In this document: piece by piece, positions 3 to 12,746 of the stretch
Numbering within the stretch: the first letter of the stretch is position 1
How the letters are laid out: each line of letters starts with the position of its first letter
Assembly (NCBI GenBank): GCA_030066475.1
Contig: JASJBO010000033.1
Coordinates: 1 to 22,057 of the forward strand
From: Myxococcota bacterium
GTDB taxonomy: Bacteria; Myxococcota_A; UBA9160; PR03
DNA: 22,057 nucleotides
Direction: 5' to 3'
Translations under genes and position numbers: made by a program
Notes under the pieces: generated by a model
What the model was told of the DNA's origin: nothing
The model's input: only the letters and a program-made list of their open reading frames with translations
Database searches by the model: none

Positions 3-161
3 CGGGCCCTGCGCGGACTGCTCCGCAGCGCGAGCCGGGCCGCGCGCTCGCGCGGACCGCTGCGCACGCCGCCGCAGCGGCCCTTCCCGCGCTTCAGCAC
101 CCGCGCAAGCGCCCGAAGGGCGCGGGCAGTGAGGCGAAGCCGAACGAAGTCAGACAGGTAG
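3..161 (+). CDS. Possible 3' end of an upstream plus-strand gene (partial)
   Basis: One frame is open from the window edge to a TAG at 159-161. Over roughly the first 110 bases its third codon positions are almost all G or C, as in the real genes of this window. The translation is Arg/Ser/Pro-rich and matches no family I recognise. It would end 3 nt before the GTG of the next gene, a spacing typical of co-transcribed genes. Its last ~50 bases lie in the repeat-like segment at 104-151, so the coding sequence may really stop earlier or use another frame (one alternative ends at TGA 130-132). Low confidence. Confidence 0.25.
   Translation, partial: RALRGLLRSASRAARSRGPLRTPPQRPFPRFSTRASARRARAVRRSRTKSDR
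104..151 (+). repeat. Repeat-like segment, copy 1 (similar to the insert in hisF)
   Basis: The last 26 bases (126-151) match 22 of 26 positions of the reverse complement of 7034-7059, with shared core GAGGCGMAGCCGA. Both copies also begin with CGCAAGCG about 48-52 bp before the common end at AGTC. This copy lies just upstream of the GTG start of the nucleotidyltransferase gene. Two copies in one window suggest a dispersed genomic repeat; GC-rich composition makes a chance resemblance possible. Confidence 0.5.
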
Positions 162-2648: not shown

Positions 2649-4532
<1,884 letters not shown>

Positions 4533-4547
4533 CGGGGGTCTCCTCGT

Positions 4548-6323
4548 CTACGTCCGCGTGGGGCTCGGGGTGAGGCCCTGCGTCTGCTTCCTCTCTTCGA
4601 TCTGCCGCTGCTTCTCGGCCAGCAGCGACAGCGGATCCGCTTCGTCGCGGAGGCGCCGGGTGGTGTCGCGCCGGCGCTCGGCGTGGCGGCGGCGGCGCAG
4701 GCCCGCGATCGTGTCGTCGACCGCGCGCCGCGCCTCGTCGGCCTCGAGACCGGGGTGCTCTTCGACGGCGAGCGCGCGCAGCTCGGCGGCCGCCTCCTCG
4801 TCGAGCTGCGCGGCGAGCGCGTGCACGTCGGCGGCGGCGCCGGCCGTGCGCGCGTCGAGCACGGCCAGCAGGATCGACGCCCAGGGCGCGCCGGGCACCA
4901 GGCTCTCGAGCTCGGCGCGGTCGAGCAGGCCGGCGAGCGGCGGGTGGTCGAGCAGCAGCCGCACCAGACGCCGCGCGAAGCGGGCCTCGGGTCCGCTCAG
5001 GCGCGGACGCGCCGCGGGCTCCACGTCGGGATCGGCACCGCCGGGCGAGCGCTCGCGGCGCAGCGCCTCGTCCACGTCCTCGACGCGCACGTCCACCGCC
5101 AGCGCCAGGCGGCGCGCATACTCACCGCGCTCGACGGGATCCGTCACGCGCACCAGCAGCTTCACCACGTTGCGCACCGCGTCGGCCTTCTCCCACGGCG
5201 TGCGGCAGCCCTGCCTCACGGCGCGGCGGATCGCGTGCTCGATCGCGGGCGGCGCCTCGTCGACCACGCGGCGCAGGGCCTCGGCGCCCTCGCGCACCAG
5301 CAGGGTGTCGGGGTCGTCGCCCGGCGGCAACGCGCCCGCGCGCACGCGCAGGCCCTCGGGCAGCAGGATCTCGAGTGAGCGCTCGACCGCGCGCTGCCCG
5401 GCCTCGTCGCCGTCGAACAACAGGACCACCTCGCGCGTGCGGCGGCGCAGCTGCCGCGCGTGCTCGGGCGTGAGCGCCGTGCCGCAGGTCGCGACCGACT
5501 CGGTCACGCCCGCGCGCGCCAGCGCGATGCGGTCGAAGTAGCCCTCCACCACCACGGCGCGTCCGCTGCGCCGGATCGCCTCGAGGCAGTCGGGGAAGCC
5601 GTAGAACGCCTCGCGCTTGCGGAACACCGGGCTCTCGGGCGTGTTCAGGTACTTGGGCTCCTGGTCCACCGCGAGCGCGCGGCCGCCGAAGCCCACGATG
5701 CGGTCGCGCACGTCGCGGATCGGGAAGGTGACCCGCCCGCGCAGCCGGTCGTAGTGGCCGCCGCTCTGGCGCTCGGCCAGCAGGCCCGCCTTCTCGCCCA
5801 GCTCGGCGGGCAGCTTGGCTGCAGCCAGGGCGGTGCGCACGGCGTCCCAGCTGTCGGGTGCGAAGCCGAGTCCGAAGCGCTCGATCTCCGCCGGCTCGAG
5901 GCCGCGCCGCTCGAGGTAGGCGCGCGCCTCGACGCCGGCATCGGCCGCGAGGCGGTCGCGGTACAGCCGCTGCGCGACCTCGTTCGCGTCGCGCAGGCGC
6001 TCGTTCAGGCCGGCGTCGCCGCCGCCGCTCTCCGGCACCTCGACCCCGACGTCGCGGGCGATCACGCGCACGGCCTCGGGGAAGGTGAGGTTCTCGTGCT
6101 GCATCAGGAAGCGGAAGGCGTCGCCGCCCGCTCCACAGCCGAAGCAGTGGAAGATCCCGCGCTCGGGGTTGACCTGGAAGGAGGGGGTCTTCTCGTCGTG
6201 GAAGGGGCACAGCCCCTTGAAGCTACGACCGCTCTGCCGGAGGGAGACGTGGCGCCCGACCAATTCGACGATGTCGACGCGATCCCGTACCGCTTCGATC
6301 GTGTCGTCCGGGATCCGGCCCAC
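4548..6323 (-). CDS. dnaG: DNA primase DnaG
   Basis: 591 aa. Synthesises RNA primers at the replication fork. The N-terminal CHC2 zinc finger has C39, H42, C60 and C63 (CPFH and CFGC motifs). The catalytic core includes YLNTPESPVFRK (225-236). The TOPRIM domain shows the catalytic glutamate in VVVEGYFD (E260) and the metal-binding acidic cluster LLFDGDEAG (D304, D306), followed by DDPDTLL (336-342). The C-terminal DnaB-interacting region, about 440-591, is Ala/Arg-rich and poorly conserved, as usual. Start is GTG at 6323, with a GGAGG site at 6332-6336 spaced 8 nt. It lies between rpsU (15 nt) and rpoD (15 nt), the classical macromolecular synthesis operon order. Confidence 0.97.
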   Translation of the reverse strand: MGRIPDDTIEAVRDRVDIVELVGRHVSLRQSGRSFKGLCPFHDEKTPSFQVNPERGIFHCFGCGAGGDAFRFLMQHENLTFPEAVRVIARDVGVEVPESGGGDAGLNERLRDANEVAQRLYRDRLAADAGVEARAYLERRGLEPAEIERFGLGFAPDSWDAVRTALAAAKLPAELGEKAGLLAERQSGGHYDRLRGRVTFPIRDVRDRIVGFGGRALAVDQEPKYLNTPESPVFRKREAFYGFPDCLEAIRRSGRAVVVEGYFDRIALARAGVTESVATCGTALTPEHARQLRRRTREVVLLFDGDEAGQRAVERSLEILLPEGLRVRAGALPPGDDPDTLLVREGAEALRRVVDEAPPAIEHAIRRAVRQGCRTPWEKADAVRNVVKLLVRVTDPVERGEYARRLALAVDVRVEDVDEALRRERSPGGADPDVEPAARPRLSGPEARFARRLVRLLLDHPPLAGLLDRAELESLVPGAPWASILLAVLDARTAGAAADVHALAAQLDEEAAAELRALAVEEHPGLEADEARRAVDDTIAGLRRRRHAERRRDTTRRLRDEADPLSLLAEKQRQIEERKQTQGLTPSPTRT

Positions 6324-6338
6324 GCAGTGGCCCTCCGA

Positions 6339-6536
6339 TCAGCGCGCCATCTTCTTCAGCTTCTTCAGGGCGCGTTTGCGAGAGGCGGCTGCCTTCTTCT
6401 TGCGCCTGACGCTCGGCTTGTCGTAGGACTCGCGGCGCCGCAGCTCCGTCAGGATGCCGGCCTTCTCCACCTGCTTCTTGAAGCGCTTCAGCGCCTGCTC
6501 GAAAGACTCGTTTTCCTTGACCTTGACGAGGGGCAA
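6339..6536 (-). CDS. rpsU: 30S ribosomal protein S21
   Basis: 65 aa, typical for S21. The product starts [20 protein letters not shown] and ends in the Lys/Arg-rich tail [14 protein letters not shown]; the internal [16 protein letters not shown] is diagnostic. S21 is a small basic protein of the 30S platform near the 16S 3' end and influences initiation. The frame is open far upstream, but the S21 similarity begins at TTG 6536, with GGAG at 6547-6550 about 10 nt before it, so a TTG start is called. First gene of the rpsU-dnaG-rpoD operon. No gatB/yqeY gene lies between rpsU and dnaG, unlike in several other proteobacteria. Confidence 0.95.
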
Positions 6537-6637
6537 GAACTCGTCGCTCCGTCTTGGGGGTGAGTGGCTCCGCCCGCGGCGTGGTGTCAATCCGTGGGTT
6601 CGATCCGCGGTCGGCAGGAAATGCGCAATTCGGAACG
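6537..6637 (-). promoter_or_regulatory. hisF-rpsU intergenic region with a possible rpsU promoter
   Basis: 101 nt between the hisF stop and the rpsU start. On the minus strand a perfect TTGACA is present at 6590-6585, but no good -10 hexamer occurs 16-19 nt downstream (the candidates are C-rich). This is where an operon-leading promoter for rpsU-dnaG-rpoD would be expected. No clear T-tailed terminator for the his genes is visible, so read-through from hisF is possible. Confidence 0.3.
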
Positions 6638-7519
6638 CTAGCGCACGGTCCCTCTGGGGGCAACGCAGGGAGGGCGCACTGCGATGCCTCGGGCCAGCAG
6701 ATGCGCCTTCACCTCGGCGACGGTGGTCTCCTTGAAGTGGAAGATCGACGCGGCCAGCGCCGCCTGGGCGTGGCCGCCCTCGGGGCCGTCGTCGAGCGCC
6801 GCCGCCAGGTCGTCCGCGCTGCCCCCGCCGCCCGAGGCGATCACCGGGATCGAGACGGCGTCCGAAACGGCGCGGCAGAACTCCAGGTCGTAGCCGCTCT
6901 TGGTCCCGTCCTGGTCCATGCTGGTCAGGAGGATCTCCCCCGCTCCGGCTTCCGCCATCCTCGTTGCCCAATGAACGGCATCGATCCCCGTAGGCTCCCT
7001 CCCTCCGTGCGTGCAGACCTCCCATTTGGGGGGGACTCCGCTCGGCTGCGCCTCGCTGCGCGCTCCGGCTTCGCCTCCGCTTGCGGCTTCCTCCTTCGGG
7101 CCGAGGTGGGTGGGAGGGACGCGGCGGGCGTCGATTGCGACGACCAGGTTTGCGGTGCCGATCTTGGCGGCGGCGTCGGCGACCAGGTCGGGGTTCTGGA
7201 CGGCGGCGGTCATGATCGAGACCTTGTCGGCGCCGGCGTTGAGCAGATCGCGCACGTCCTGGAGGGTGCGCACGCCGCCGCCGACGCAGAGCGGCATGAA
7301 GACGCTCTCGGCGGTGCGCGCCACCACGTCGAGGATGATGCGGCGCTTCTCGTGGCTCGCCGTGATGTCGAGGAAGGTGATCTCGTCGGCCTCCTGCTCG
7401 TCATACAGGCGCGCCACCTCCACCGGGTCGCCGGCATCGACGTGGTCGACGTACTTCACGCCCTTCACCACGCGGCCGCGGTCGACGTCGAGGCAGGGGA
7501 TGATGCGCTTCAGGAGCAT
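6638..7519 (-). CDS. hisF: Imidazole glycerol phosphate synthase cyclase subunit HisF, with in-frame insertion
   Basis: 293 aa, about 40 longer than usual. HisF uses ammonia delivered by HisH to convert PRFAR into imidazole glycerol phosphate and AICAR. The (beta/alpha)8 signatures are present: [16 protein letters not shown] with catalytic D11, [10 protein letters not shown] (76-85), VVAIDARRV with catalytic D130, [20 protein letters not shown] (193-212) and [10 protein letters not shown] (225-234). Extra length comes from about 28 residues inserted at 135-162, after strand beta-5, where homologues form the tip of a beta-hairpin, plus a short C-terminal tail ([11 protein letters not shown]). 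The insert is Glu/Ala/Gly/Ser-rich and flanked by Val-Pro-Pro on both sides. Codons downstream of the insert (about 166-195) use GAT, GTT, CAT, AGG and GGA more than neighbouring genes do. The ATG at 7519 overlaps the end of hisA by 10 nt. All catalytic residues remain, so activity is plausible but unproven. Confidence 0.95.
7027..7120 (-). repeat. In-frame 84-bp insertion in hisF bounded by 10-bp direct repeats
   Basis: On the coding strand GTCCCTCCCA (7120-7111) and GTCCCCCCCA (7036-7027) are 84 bp apart, so one copy plus the intervening sequence is exactly 28 codons. The interior holds three degenerate copies of a unit resembling GAGGCGAAGCCGNAGCG. Its distal part (7034-7085) resembles 104-151 near the window start. 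HisF homologues lack this segment. The layout resembles an inserted small element with a target duplication; slippage in a GC-rich loop is an alternative origin. Confidence 0.65.
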
Positions 7520-8250
7520 CCGGCGATCTCCAGGGCGCGCGCCAGGTCGACGTCACCGGTGTAGAGGGCGCGGCCCACGATCAGTCCCGCGATGCCGCGC
7601 CCGGCATACTCGGCGGCGGCGCGCACGTGCGCCTCGCTGCCCACGCCGCCCGAGGCGATCACGGGGATCGCCACGGCGCCGGCCAGCTCGGCGGTGGCCT
7701 CGAGGTCGGGACCGCTCCCCATGCCGTCGCGCGCGATGTTGGTGTAGACCAGCGCCGCGACGCCGGCGCCCTCGAAACAGCGCGCCAGCTCGAGCGCCGC
7801 CGTGTCGCCGGTCTCGAGCCAGCCCTGCGTCGCCACGCGGCCGTCGCGCGCGTCGATGCCCACCACCACGCGGCCCGGCCAGCGCCGCGCCGACTCGCTC
7901 ACCAGCTCGGGGTCGCGCAGCGCGGCGGTGCCGAGGATGACGCGGTCGACGCCCAGCTCGAGCGCCTCCTCGACCGCGGCCTGCGAGCGCATGCCGCCGC
8001 CGAGCTGCACCGGGATGCCCTTCGCGCCCGTCACGATCGCGCGCACCGCGTCGCGGTTGTGCGGCCGGCCGGCGCGCGCACCGTCGAGGTCGACCACGTG
8101 CAGGCGCGGCGGCCCCAGCGCGGCGAACTCGGCGGCGACCGCGCCCGGGTCGTCGCCGTACACGGTGGCGCGGTCGTAGTCGCCCTGCGCCAGCCGCACG
8201 CAGCGGCCGTCGAGCAGGTCGATGGCGGGGAGGATCTCGAAGGGGGGCAA
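7510..8250 (-). CDS. hisA: ProFAR isomerase HisA
   Basis: 246 aa, normal length. Opens the ribose of ProFAR to give PRFAR, the HisF substrate. Motifs: [15 protein letters not shown] with catalytic D11, [12 protein letters not shown] (50-61), VQLGGGMRS (81-89), [14 protein letters not shown] (128-141, D133), [16 protein letters not shown] (167-182, with T170 and D175) and [10 protein letters not shown] (196-205). The LQGD-type segment and second catalytic Asp distinguish it from HisF. Start is TTG at 8250, with a GAGG site several bases upstream; no ATG lies in a suitable position. The stop overlaps the hisF start by 10 nt. It follows the lipoprotein gene after 12 nt. Confidence 0.95.
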
Positions 8251-8262
8251 GAGCGGACCTCG

Positions 8263-8868
8263 CTAGCGGGGGACAGGCAGCGCCTCGGCGATCTCGCCGG
8301 CGCCCCAGCGCGCCATCTCCTCGGCGCTCAGCCAGCGCATGCCGCCGCCGGGATAGCGGCGCGCGTTGAACACGTTCGAGCCGAGCGACTGCTGGGTCTC
8401 GTCGAAGGCGCCCGACCAGAGCATCAAGCCGTCGGGCACGCCGTACACGCGCACCTGGAAGCCGACGCTGGCCGGCGTCATGGCGCCCGCCGCGCGTCCC
8501 TCGCGCTCGCGGAAGCGGGTGATCGTGCCGAGCACCAGCGCCTGCGCGCCGAAGCGATGCTGCACCACGGCGGCCGCCTCGCGCGGGTCCACTGGGCCGC
8601 CGTCGGAGCGCAGCGCCGTCGACACGTCCGAGGGAGGCACCACCTCGAGACCGCGGCCGCGCAGCGCGTCGGCCACGTACAGGGCCACCAGCTGTGGCGC
8701 GTCCTCGCGCACGCGCAGCCCGGGCCGGTGCAGCCGGAACGGCCCCACCGCGACCCGGCTCACCACGAGCCCGCGCGCCTCGATCGACGGGTGCTTGCGC
8801 ACCTGCACGGTCTCGATGCAGCCGAGGCACACGACGAGCGCGATCACCGAGCTCAGCAGCCTCTTCAT
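8263..8868 (-). CDS. Putative secreted lipoprotein inside the his operon
   Basis: 201 aa. The N-terminus is a signal peptide: MKR, then a hydrophobic stretch LLSSVIALVVCLG (4-16), then C17. The lipobox CLGC is imperfect because position -3 is Cys rather than Leu, so lipidation is likely but not certain. The mature part has alternating strand and helix patterns: VSRVAVGPFRLHRPG (36-50), LVALYVADALRGRGLEVVPPSDV (60-82), FGAQALVLGTITRF (106-119), VGFQVRVYGVPDGLMLWSGAFDETQQSL (135-162). The arrangement of an early strand, a helix, 'GADALVLG', a beta-strand and 'LWSG' resembles DUF799/GNA1162-, CsgG- or TolB-N-type lipoproteins, some of which belong to envelope assembly systems; this is a fold-level guess. 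Its ATG overlaps the hisH stop (ATGA) and it ends 12 nt before hisA, so it is translated with the his genes. Confidence 0.8.
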   Translation of the reverse strand: MKRLLSSVIALVVCLGCIETVQVRKHPSIEARGLVVSRVAVGPFRLHRPGLRVREDAPQLVALYVADALRGRGLEVVPPSDVSTALRSDGGPVDPREAAAVVQHRFGAQALVLGTITRFREREGRAAGAMTPASVGFQVRVYGVPDGLMLWSGAFDETQQSLGSNVFNARRYPGGGMRWLSAEEMARWGAGEIAEALPVPR

Positions 8869-9500
8869 GTCGTGACCCAGGTGAAGAAGGCATCGAGCAG
8901 CCTTCGACCCGCGTTCTGGCTCTTCTCGGGATGGAACTGCACGGCGAACACGTTGTCGCGCGCCACCGCAGCGGCGAAGTCGCCGCCGTAGTCGGCACGA
9001 CCCACCACGGTGTCGGCCTGCGAGGGCACGGGCCGGTACGAGTGGACGAAGTAGTACACGTCGGTCTCCGGCAGTGCGTCGAGCATCGGGTGCTCGCCCG
9101 CGAAGCGCACCGTGTTCCAGCCGATGTGCGGCACCAGGAGCCGCACGCCGTTCACCTGCTCGGGGAAGCGCTCGACGCGGCCGCTCAGCAGGCCCAGGCC
9201 CGGGGTGACCCCGTGCTCGTCCGCCTCCTCGTAGAGCAGCTGGAAGCCGAGGCAGATCCCCAGGTAGGGGCGCCCCGCGGCGATCGCGGCGCACACGGCG
9301 TCGTCGAGCCCCTTGGCGCGCAGGCTCTCGCGCGCGTCGCGGAAGGCGCCCACGCCCGGCAGCACCACGGCGTCGGCGCGGCGCACGGCGGCGGCGTCGC
9401 CGGTGACCGACACCGCGAAGCCCGAGCGCTCGAGCGCCTTGGCCACGCTGCGCAGGTTGCCGGCGCCGTGGTCGACCACGGAGGCGAGCGGCGTGCTCAC
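8865..9500 (-). CDS. hisH: Imidazole glycerol phosphate synthase glutaminase subunit HisH
   Basis: 211 aa class I glutamine amidotransferase. It hydrolyses glutamine and feeds ammonia to HisF. The N-terminus VVDHGAGNLRSVAKAL (8-22) is typical. The nucleophile is C83 in YLGICLGFQLL; the other triad members are H190 and E192 in VQFHPEKSQ. The HisH-specific PHIGWN lies at 124-129 and YYFVHSY at 149-155. Start is GTG at 9500, overlapping the hisB stop (GTGA). It ends in an ATGA overlap with the lipoprotein gene. HisH and its partner HisF are separated here by the lipoprotein gene and hisA. Confidence 0.96.
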   Translation of the reverse strand: MSTPLASVVDHGAGNLRSVAKALERSGFAVSVTGDAAAVRRADAVVLPGVGAFRDARESLRAKGLDDAVCAAIAAGRPYLGICLGFQLLYEEADEHGVTPGLGLLSGRVERFPEQVNGVRLLVPHIGWNTVRFAGEHPMLDALPETDVYYFVHSYRPVPSQADTVVGRADYGGDFAAAVARDNVFAVQFHPEKSQNAGRRLLDAFFTWVTT

Positions 9501-10102
9501 AGCGCGCCCTTCACCGAGGGCACGCCGCTGATGCGCGGGTCGAGCTCGACGGCGACGCGCAGCGCGCGCGCCAGGCCCTTGAAGATCGCCTCGACCGCGT
9601 GGTGCGGGCTCTTGCCGTAGCGGAGCTCGACGTGCAGGTCGATGCCGGCATTCTGCGAGAAGGCGTACAGGAAGTCCTCGACCAGCGAGACGTCGAAGCT
9701 CCCGACCCGGTCGTTGGCGAGATCCACCCGGTACACGAGGTAGGCCCGGTTCGACACGTCGAGCGCCACGTCGACGCGCGACTCCGCCATCGGCAGCACG
9801 AAGAAGCCGTAGCGGCGGATCCCGGAGGCGTCGCCGAGCGCCTGGCGCACGGCGCTGCCGAGCGTGATGCCGACGTCCTCCACCGTGTGGTGCAGGTCGA
9901 CCTCGAGGTCGCCGCGCGCGCGCAGGTGCAGGTCGAACGCGCCGTGGCGGGCGAACGACTCGAGCATGTGGTCGAAGAAGGCGATGCCGGTGGCGATGTC
10001 GTACTCGCCGCTGCCGTCGAGGTCGAGCGCCAGCTCGATCTCGGTCTCCTTGGTCTTGCGCCGGTTCCCGGCGCGCCGGGGCTCGCGGGGGGTCTCGCTC
10101 AT
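9497..10102 (-). CDS. hisB: Imidazoleglycerol-phosphate dehydratase HisB (monofunctional)
   Basis: 201 aa, dehydratase only, without the N-terminal histidinol phosphatase domain of the enterobacterial fusion. It dehydrates imidazole glycerol phosphate to imidazole acetol phosphate. The two manganese-binding motifs are HHTVED (71-76) and KSPHHAVEA (164-172). Other family sequence: TGIAFFDHMLESFARHG (38-54) and PRISGVPSVKG (189-199). A short Arg/Lys-rich extension of about 15 residues precedes the conserved start at KTKETEIEL. ATG at 10102 follows the hisD stop by 3 nt; the stop overlaps hisH by 4 nt. Confidence 0.97.
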   Translation of the reverse strand: MSETPREPRRAGNRRKTKETEIELALDLDGSGEYDIATGIAFFDHMLESFARHGAFDLHLRARGDLEVDLHHTVEDVGITLGSAVRQALGDASGIRRYGFFVLPMAESRVDVALDVSNRAYLVYRVDLANDRVGSFDVSLVEDFLYAFSQNAGIDLHVELRYGKSPHHAVEAIFKGLARALRVAVELDPRISGVPSVKGAL

Positions 10103-10105
10103 CGC

Positions 10106-11485
10106 TCAGGCCTCCGCCTCGCGCGCGGCCTCGCGCTCGCGGCGCGCGCGCCGGATCTTCTGGAGCCGCAGGTCCACCGAGTGCCCGTGGCCGCTGAGCC
10201 CCTCCAGCTCGGCGAGCCGGATCACGTCGAGCCCCAGCTCGCGCAGCTTGGGCGGCTCGAAGCGCACGAAGCTCATGCGCTTCATGAAGTCCTCGACGCC
10301 GAGCGGCGAGAAGAAGCGCGCCGTGCCGCCGGTCGGCAGCACGTGGTTGGGTCCTGCCAGGTAGTCGCCCACCGCCACCGGCGTGTAGTGGCCCATGAAC
10401 ACGGCCCCGGCGTTGCGGATCCTCTTGAGCGCCGCCTCGGGCTGGTCGATCGCCAGCACGCAGTGCTCGGGCGCGTAGCGGTCGACCAGCGCGAGCGCCT
10501 CGTCGAGGTCGCGCGTCACGACGATGGCGCCGCGCTTCCCGAGCGACTGCTTCACGATCCTCGCGCGCGGCAGCGCCGCTGCCTGCTTGGCGAGCTGGTC
10601 CTGCACCTTCTTGACCAGCCCCTTCACCGGCGTGATCAGCACCGCCTGTGCCATCTCGTCGTGCTCGGCCTGGGAGATCAGGTCGGCCGCCACCCAGGCC
10701 GGCGTGGCGGAGCGGTCGGCCACGACCGCCACCTCGGTGGGACCCGCCTCCGCGTCGATGCCGACCTGGCCGAACACCAGGCGCTTGGCGGTCGCCACCC
10801 AGACGTTGCCGGGACCGACGATCTTGTCGACGCGCGGCACGCTCTCGGTGCCGTACGCCAGCGCGGCCACCGCGTGCGCCCCGCCCATCTTGAAGACGCG
10901 GTGCACGCCGGCCAGGCGCGCCGCCATCAGCACGTCGGGGCGCAGCTTGCCGTCGGGGCCGGGCGGCGAGGCCATCACGATCTCGGGCACCTCGACCACC
11001 GAGGCGGGCACCGCGTTCATGATCACGCTGGACGGGTAGGCCGCCTTGCCGCCGGGGACGTAGAGCCCGGCGCGCTGGATCGGGCGCACGCGCTGGCCCA
11101 TGAAGGCGCCACCCTCCTCCTTCATCTCCCAGCTCGAGGCCACGCGCTTGCGGTGGAACTCGCGCACGCGCATCGCCGCCTTGCCGAGCGCAGCGCGGTC
11201 GGCCGGGTCCAGCTCGGCCACCGAGGCATCCCACTCGTCGGGCGTCACCTCCAGCGCGGCGAGCTTCGCCCCGTCGTGCTTGTGCACGAGGCCGAGCAGC
11301 GCCGCGTCGCCCTCGTCGCGCACCTTCTCGACGATGCGCCGCGCCGCCCTCTCGACGTCCTCGGCCTCGGCGACCCGCCGCTGCTCGAGCGCGGCGAAGC
11401 TCTTCGCGAAGCCCGCGTCCGCCGTCGCGAACACGCGCATCAGGTCCTTCGAGGCCGAGCTCCTGCCCGAGCTGCGAGCGGCCAT
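10106..11485 (-). CDS. hisD: Histidinol dehydrogenase HisD
   Basis: 459 aa with the start chosen here. Catalyses the last two NAD-dependent oxidations from L-histidinol to histidine. Motifs: [18 protein letters not shown] (144-161), [19 protein letters not shown] (221-239), DAEAGPTEV (244-252). The zinc ligands are Q272 and H275 ([11 protein letters not shown]), D374 ([15 protein letters not shown]) and the C-terminal H433; catalytic E340-H341 are in APEHCVLAI. An upstream GTG (11512) would add nine residues inside the murA gene; ATG 11485 is preferred because GGGAGGGG precedes it. The N-terminal 15 residues and the Arg/Glu-rich C-terminus (443-459) are extra to the family core. It starts one base after the murA stop. 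hisG is not adjacent. Confidence 0.96.
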
Positions 11486-11486
11486 G

Positions 11487-12746
11487 TCACCCCTCCCGTC
11501 GGATGTCCGCACCGAGGCGTCCGAGCTTCTCCTCGATGCGCTCGTAGCCGCGGTCGATGTGGTAGACCCGGTTCACCACCGTCTCCCCGCCGGCCGCGAG
11601 ACCCGCCACGATCAGTCCCGCCGACGCGCGCAGGTCGGTCGCCATCACCGGCGCGCCGGAGAGCCCGCGCACGCCGTGCACCAGCGCCGTGCGGCCCGAG
11701 AGCCGGATCTCGGCGCCGAGCCGCTGCAGCTCCGGCACGTGCATGAAGCGGTTCTCGAACACGTTCTCGGTGACCGCGCTCTCGCCCGCGGCGACCGTGA
11801 GCACGGCCATGAGCTGCGCCTGCATGTCGGTGGCGAAGCCCGGGTACGGCGCGGTCTCGACCCGCAGCGCGCGCGGCGGACCCGACGCGACGAGCCGCAC
11901 CGAGTCGGCGTCCGAGTCGATTTCGCCACCGGCCTCGGCCAGCGCGCGCAATGTGGCCTCCATCCAGCGGGGATCGGTGCCGCGCACGCGCACGTCGCCG
12001 CCGGTGATGAGACCCGCGGCCAGCAGGGTGCCGGCCTCGATGCGGTCGCCCCAGGCGGTGTGGTCGGCGCCGTCGAGCGAGTCGACGCCCTCGATCTCGA
12101 TGCGCGGCGTGCCGTCACCCTCGATGCGCGCACCCATCGCGCGCAGCACGTGGGCCAGCTCCACCACCTCGGGCTCGCAGGCCGCGTTCTCGATCACGGT
12201 GCGACCCTCGGCGAGGGTCGCGGCCATCATCACGTTCTGCGTGCCGTTGACGGTGACCAGGTCGAACTCGAGCGAGCTCCCCTGCAGGCGCGCGGCGGTG
12301 GCCTCGACGTAGCCGTGCTCGAGCCGGACCTTGGCGCCGAGCGCGGCGAGCCCCTTCAGGTGCTGGTCGACCGGGCGCACGCCGATCGCGCAGCCGCCCG
12401 GCTCCGACACCCGCCCGCTGCCGCAGCGCGCGACGAGCGGGCCGAGCACCAGGAACGAGGCCCGCATCTTGCGCACCAGCTCGTAGGGCGCCTCGGGCTG
12501 GGAGATCGGCCCGCCGAACAGGTGCAGGGCGTGCCGGTCCTCGGGGTCCCACACGGCCTGGGCGCCGAGCGCGCGCAGCAGCTCCACCATGAACTCGACG
12601 TCGCGCACGCGCGGCACGTTGCGCAGCACCAGCTCGGCGTCGGTGAGCAGCGACGCCGCCATCAGCGCCAGCGTGGCGTTCTTCGAGCCGGAGGCCGCGA
12701 CCTCCCCGGCGAGTCGGTTCCCGCCCCGTACGACGATGCGATCCAT
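11487..12746 (-). CDS. murA: UDP-N-acetylglucosamine 1-carboxyvinyltransferase MurA
   Basis: 419 aa, normal length. Transfers enolpyruvate from PEP to UDP-GlcNAc, the committed cytoplasmic step of peptidoglycan synthesis. The substrate-binding lysine is K22 in SGSKNATLAL. The active-site loop GGCAIGVRPVDQHL carries C119, the residue attacked by fosfomycin in sensitive enzymes. Later motifs include VTVNGTQNVMMAATLAEGRT, DRIEAGTLL, and PYPGFATDMQAQ, which holds the catalytic-region Asp. Start ATG 12746 is 3 nt from the prmC stop; the gene ends one base before hisD. murA beside prfA-prmC and his genes is familiar from deltaproteobacterial genomes. Confidence 0.97.
   Translation of the reverse strand: MDRIVVRGGNRLAGEVAASGSKNATLALMAASLLTDAELVLRNVPRVRDVEFMVELLRALGAQAVWDPEDRHALHLFGGPISQPEAPYELVRKMRASFLVLGPLVARCGSGRVSEPGGCAIGVRPVDQHLKGLAALGAKVRLEHGYVEATAARLQGSSLEFDLVTVNGTQNVMMAATLAEGRTVIENAACEPEVVELAHVLRAMGARIEGDGTPRIEIEGVDSLDGADHTAWGDRIEAGTLLAAGLITGGDVRVRGTDPRWMEATLRALAEAGGEIDSDADSVRLVASGPPRALRVETAPYPGFATDMQAQLMAVLTVAAGESAVTENVFENRFMHVPELQRLGAEIRLSGRTALVHGVRGLSGAPVMATDLRASAGLIVAGLAAGGETVVNRVYHIDRGYERIEEKLGRLGADIRREG
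11490..11497 (-). promoter_or_regulatory. Ribosome binding site that fixes the hisD start
   Basis: GGGAGGGG on the minus strand, lying at the 3' end of murA, 4 nt before ATG 11485 (6 nt from the GGAGG core). It makes ATG 11485 a much better start than the upstream GTG at 11512. Confidence 0.75.

Follow-up and report, generated by a model that had tools for sequence, protein, structure and literature searches.

An in-frame copy of a probable REP-like palindromic repeat in the expanded beta-5 loop of HisF from a Myxococcota bacterium

The stretch of DNA analysed here (the window) comprises 22,057 nt from a Myxococcota bacterium. Judged from the translations only, positions 2649-12746 hold a his run of hisD, hisB, hisH, hisA and hisF, after which come the last part of an S21-like ORF and two further ORFs, one primase-like and one sigma-70-like. 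The hisF gene occupies 6638..7519 on the minus strand (293 aa, stop codon included in the coordinates), and its assignment is based on the ORF together with PDB matches to 74 distinct sequences at E ≤ 0.001, the best being HisF-LUCA (2.1e-91). From the alignment with HisF-LUCA (4evz), it is clear that the protein is interrupted between residues 134 and 165, where the solved chain runs only from 134 to 137. The 28 extra residues bear out the preliminary description, made from the letters of the window, which had placed about that many after D130-ARRV. The expanded beta-5 hairpin loop, residues 134-165, thus corresponds to 7025..7120 (minus strand); this turn lies next to D130 at the active-site face, with the HisH side on the opposite face. 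An AlphaFold2 model built from 66 aligned sequences has a mean pLDDT of 85.6 and agrees with solved HisF, 4evz, 1ka9 and 1gpw being among the best structural matches. Between the strands 125-134 and 165-170, the predicted confidence falls to 46 (residues 141-150) and 49 (residues 151-160), with residues 143-156 below 50. These low values fit a disordered loop, with which they are compatible without being a proof of it. We infer that HisF carrying the insert keeps its activity.

The insert had been proposed to be an 84-bp element bounded by imperfect 10-bp direct repeats, GTCCCTCCCA on the left (7120-7111; 7111..7120, minus strand) and GTCCCCCCCA on the right (7036-7027; 7027..7036, minus strand). 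The start-to-start spacing of the two 10-mers is indeed 84 nt, but as boundaries they carry no meaning. Direct repeats of 10 bp that differ at no more than one position turn up in 70% of 1000 order-1 random sequences modelled on the insert stretch, so that the left copy is not significant, and the right copy overlaps the 3′ end of the conserved repeat element described below. Because they are frequent by chance and one of them overlaps the end of the conserved element, the flanking 10-mers give no evidence of a target-site duplication, and this origin was rejected. The actual repeat is a unit of about 50 nt inside the insert. Three internal units of the GAGGCGAAGCCG type had also been suggested, of which a repeat search reports two (12 nt, 92% alike) and not the third. 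The 141-nt stretch folds as RNA no better than its shuffles (z 0.83), and at the gathering score Rfam gave no match in the window or in the relatives' stretches L206, L181, L184 and L221.

The layout of the element, some 45-60 nt in length, consists of a GCAAGC head, a variable segment, the core GYAGCGAGSCGNAGSCGAGCG and an RAGTC tail, forming two hairpins. In a consensus of 94 copies from relatives (30 loci of the closest relative, G001, and 64 others), the core and the tail are conserved. The hisF copy extends from CCGCAAGC to GAGTCC at 7033..7086 on the minus strand, with its head beginning at 7084 and its core, free of mismatches, at 7059. The conserved GCAAGC head occupies 7079..7084 (minus strand): among 93 copies, the window's included, 52 have GCAAG upstream of the core at a distance of at most 60 nt and 41 lack it, compared with 163 of 3240 random 60-nt stretches. 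The variable segment of the hisF copy (7060..7078, minus strand) could form no more than a degenerate hairpin, centred on GGC-GAA-GCC, and its folding is not significant (p=0.21). Among the 52 headed copies, 28 have a variable segment whose fold beats that of 95% of shuffles, and 15 of the remaining 24 segments are three-pair mini-hairpins. The core of the hisF copy (7039..7059, minus strand) can be drawn as the hairpin GCGAGGC-GCA-GCCGAGC, in which two G.A mismatches lie side by side, the corresponding consensus of the second hairpin being GCGAGSC-GNA-GSCGAGC. This pairing scheme is our own reading of the sequence, and it is supported by the exchange counts of the central pair given below. 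In the hisF frame, the core is translated as (R)SEAQPS(G).

A second copy, which answers the refuting condition of the preliminary description that the genome should hold no further copy, lies on the plus strand at 105..151, with a GCAAGC head, a core at 126-146 with 2 mismatches and an AAGTC tail; a perfect hairpin, GCGCCC-GAA-GGGCGC, overlaps its head. GCAAG with a core of at most 3 mismatches no more than 60 nt behind it was counted twice in the window, which exceeds chance, since 60 random windows together gave 2 (0.033 each). The copy number of two for the source organism refers to this 22-kb window.

The loop DNA of the window includes GCAGCGAGGCGCAGCCGAGCG, the centre of a 22-mer pattern with which other genomes were searched. 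Of 18 genomes from close HisF relatives, 7 contained this pattern and none its reversal; in the order to which G001 belongs, 20 of 79 genomes contained the exact 22-mer and none of the 79 the reversed control. The core was located at 840 places in 36 of these 79 genomes, reaching up to 140 per genome, while the joint pattern, reversed as a control, gave 20 places. At these 840 places the central core pair is C-G in 602 and G-C in 222, so that pairing is kept in 824 and broken in only 16, as expected for a short stem-loop of the REP kind. In genomes outside the order with one or two core matches, the same pair is broken at 31 of 54 places by hand count, and the pairing within the order must therefore reflect more than base composition alone. 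The exchange itself may have been a single event, since two old subfamilies descending from two ancestors could give both pairs. Five genomes outside the order and within the phylum (G111, G185, G359, G157 and G148) have 35, 24, 12, 11 and 10 core matches, respectively, so that the repeat extends beyond one order. Taken together, the kept pairing, the occurrence in both orientations and the clusters suggest a hairpin element spreading like REPs.

A narrower reading, compatible with the explanation that we prefer below, takes the element for a REP of the GTAG type that a REP-associated tyrosine transposase (RAYT) moves. The tag GTAG is present in 34 of 96 copies, and in this subfamily an outer 3-bp stem (CGC/GCG or GCC/GGC) is complementary in 33 of the 34, far above shuffles (mean 16.5, maximum 27). 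The window copy, however, has the majority tag GCAG, and in the GCAG subfamily there is no outer stem (complementary in 2 of 62). Y1_Tnp matches are commoner in core-rich genomes, being found in 11 of 17 genomes with at least 10 cores and in 19 of 62 others (Fisher p=0.022); one weak match in G076, which came from a separate search, is outside these counts. Against this association, none of the 15 RAYT-like genes inspected is flanked by the repeat in the manner of GTAG REPs, no copy with up to 3 mismatches being found within 1 kb of the domain match, a distance that three of the stretches, which end 0.3-0.6 kb past the gene, cover in part. The nearest copy to one of these 15 genes is at 1.4 kb. 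No Y1_Tnp was found in G019, a single 3.67-Mb contig with 25 cores, or in G039, which has 132. We therefore regard the RAYT reading as unlikely, and RAYT as a weak candidate for the mover, linked to the repeat by association only. We infer that the element still moves, and by some enzyme.

The variation of this loop was also checked among HisF proteins. The set comprised 121 proteins: the window's, P0010, which came up in a loop-directed search only, and 119 of the best 120 among 8000 scored candidates, P0121 being left out since its loop was missed by the loop pattern. The element-like peptide is carried by 62 of the 121 loops and by none of these proteins outside the loop, while 14 loops are short and 45 are long loops of other kinds; the ranking slightly favours loops resembling that of the window, and the peptide patterns, which were written after viewing the loops, miss decayed forms. 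The 62 element-like loops include 43 of the RSEAQPS/RSEPQAS type, 19 with another peptide type and 2 of the SRA type, one HisF having all three. The HisF of the window and P0001 are identical over 257/257 core residues and over 33/36 loop residues, all 3 differences being in the loop, and P0021 and P0107 are identical over 252/252 core residues with loops of 44 and 18 aa, 26 residues apart. The clean empty site with identical flanks that the preliminary description suggested looking for was not found among the HisF proteins compared; near-identical pairs differ instead by copies of the element or parts of it. On a FastTree tree of 118 HisF cores, the presence of the element requires at least 19 changes, compared with a mean of 39.6 and a minimum of 33 for shuffled labels. 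The presence of the element is thus clustered by descent, yet it changes often. Across the order, in which loop lengths run from 8 to 90 aa, the element or a clear relic of it occurs in 5 of the 70 genomes whose loop was readable (G001, G003, G006, G029 and G037; G076 was not read), G003 having an element or relic in HisF and no exact core.

One alternative to a mobile repeat is that these loops simply drift in length, by slippage and small duplications of an Ala/Glu/Gly-rich segment. Over 80 HisF loci the loop ranges from 11 to 93 residues, with mostly unrelated sequences that are often long in other phyla; whole loop classes (GVLVPSER..., RIDD...) lack the element, and tandem duplications are present in L006 and L009. 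All of this would be expected from drift. It also agrees with the earlier proposal that the turn tolerates changes in length. Long unrelated loops at many of the 80 loci go part of the way towards the observation that had been named as evidence against the element, an unrelated extra segment in distant HisF; they speak for a general tolerance of the site and leave the identification of the repeat in the window unaffected. What drift leaves unexplained is that this DNA core also occurs away from genes and within proteins other than HisF, that it lies in both orientations and is read in several frames, that its pairing is kept, and that the window has a second copy. For the window copy, drift is contradicted, and as the full explanation we consider it improbable; for many other HisF loops it may apply.

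Other repeats were seen in the same loop. At L009 (from 5390) and L146, the 90-aa HisF loop contains a tandem duplication of about 34 aa; the DNA concerned is a different sequence, rich in GC and in part palindromic, which lacks the present core. Heptamer-like tandem repeats were recognized by eye in the HisF loops of L019, L021, L038, L041, L050, L061 and L067, all from other phyla. In the genome of L050 the heptamer pattern is interspersed, with 52 matches against 3 for the reversed control; in the six other genomes the picture is less clear or negative (11, 9, 5, 4, 2 and 0 matches, with controls of 0, 1, 2, 3, 0 and 0, respectively).

The position of the repeat relative to genes was checked for 91 copies, a non-random sample made up of the loci of 7 genomes, 20 chosen regions of order genomes and the first 30 places of G001. 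By our codon model (54 ORFs), 10 copies were called inside a coding frame, 43 had one coding flank, 22 had none, and 16 had two coding flanks with differing frames or a stop between them; among the other 81, some are in frame at gene ends (L089, L182). The ten in-frame copies include the HisF of G001 and of G006. Two of the in-frame calls are probably of another nature, one (L091) reflecting a DinG-like helicase on the opposite strand and the other (L108) a copy upstream of a gene. Pfam matches span the insert in a GH3 C-terminal domain (L214), a GlpD-like DAO oxidoreductase (L095), the PHP domain of a DnaE2-like polymerase (L183) and a DUF1015 protein (L187), and L215 encodes an amine-oxidase-like protein that reads opposite to the repeat. 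The DnaE2-like gene (L183:2-3400) carries two copies in the same frame, one of them inside the PHP match. The repeat is therefore found in frame inside unrelated protein genes, as in RPEs. Element-like peptides were detected in 14 non-HisF proteins at E ≤ 10 (E < 0.02 for 6), including an aminotransferase, a UDG-family protein and a nucleosidase, and they are often near the termini. What the response-regulator-like P0126 has in common with the HisF proteins P0032 and P0106 extends beyond the element on its flanks (PDRLEHPAS/PDRLDHPPQ ... AAQQ), a sign that the repeat may be part of a larger composite. That these peptides form a selected functional module, a tag or interaction motif common to several proteins, is very improbable: RSEAKPSEV-like peptides do recur in unrelated proteins, often at least twice in one, but one and the same DNA yields RSEAQPSE, AQRGEAER or AVASRRRA and is also read on the reverse strand, the frame calls placed no more than 10 of the 91 copies in coding sequence, leaving 81, and loops differ between HisF proteins with identical cores.

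We consider it most probable, at about 85%, that the insert holds an in-frame copy of a palindromic, interspersed, REP-like repeat, and that the HisF loop is a tolerant and recurrent landing site for it. The repeat would spread as DNA, mostly outside coding frames, and a copy landing in a coding frame without a stop would be retained only where the protein tolerates the insertion. The beta-5 turn of HisF, predicted to be disordered, would be such a place, and the loops of this group would then record repeated gain, loss and duplication of a repeat-derived peptide. That HisF has kept the insert is best accounted for by a disordered loop that tolerates it. As a tentative extension, which we hold to be possible and rather doubtful, the repeat may consist of two hairpins of which the first varies in sequence and stays self-complementary, as if every move made it afresh, through snap-back or template-switch copying for instance; together with unrelated repeats in other phyla, it would land repeatedly in the HisF turn, which would then act generally as a landing pad for peptides born from repeats.

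Among the closest known systems, the GTAG/CGTC REPs are, like the present repeat, short, palindromic, interspersed and also present inside unrelated proteins, and they are themselves mostly intergenic (PMC3733652). The same study names DnaE2 among the carriers of intragenic REPs and reports REPs at about the same recB site in two Xanthomonas species (PMC3733652). The present repeat differs in its majority tag GCAG, its window copy thus having neither the GTAG nor the CGTC tag, in the sequence-variable hairpin that often precedes its core, in the absence of a RAYT beside its copies (15 genes inspected) and in its recurrence, read in different frames, in one HisF loop of many lineages. Rickettsia palindromic elements (RPEs) are palindromic repeats that sit in frame within unrelated proteins. 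The likeness that the preliminary description drew to them as a concept is supported: there are hundreds of cores in relatives besides the second window copy, and the repeat is both palindromic and in frame inside unrelated proteins. In contrast to RPEs, it occurs in other bacteria and its consensus ends without CGTC, the comparison being one of descriptions and not of sequences; RPE-1 is described as longer, and the RPEs of R. conorii as ending in CGTC (PMC3733652). PARCEL, likewise a dyad-symmetric repeat in coding sequence, has been proposed to be reshuffled inside genomes and encodes tandem 25-residue amphipathic domains (PMC2996958). The units found here are instead of about 9-16 residues, hydrophilic by inspection, located in a biosynthetic enzyme and without the tandem 25-residue arrangement. 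The literature covered, 5.39 million papers with few subscription papers among them, holds no mention of SEAKPSE, SEAQPSE or SEAEPSE and no description of the present repeat. As judged from its sequence, the element appears to work like an intragenic REP or RPE, a known kind of repeat, of which the present form has, as far as found, not been described previously.

On this preferred reading, DNA repeats would supply a housekeeping enzyme with new protein segments at a single site, and the gain, growth and loss of these segments can be traced among near-identical HisF proteins. The natural panel of HisF loops may serve as a measure of how much foreign peptide a loop on the active-site face tolerates, and the repeat family is offered for the search of its mover.
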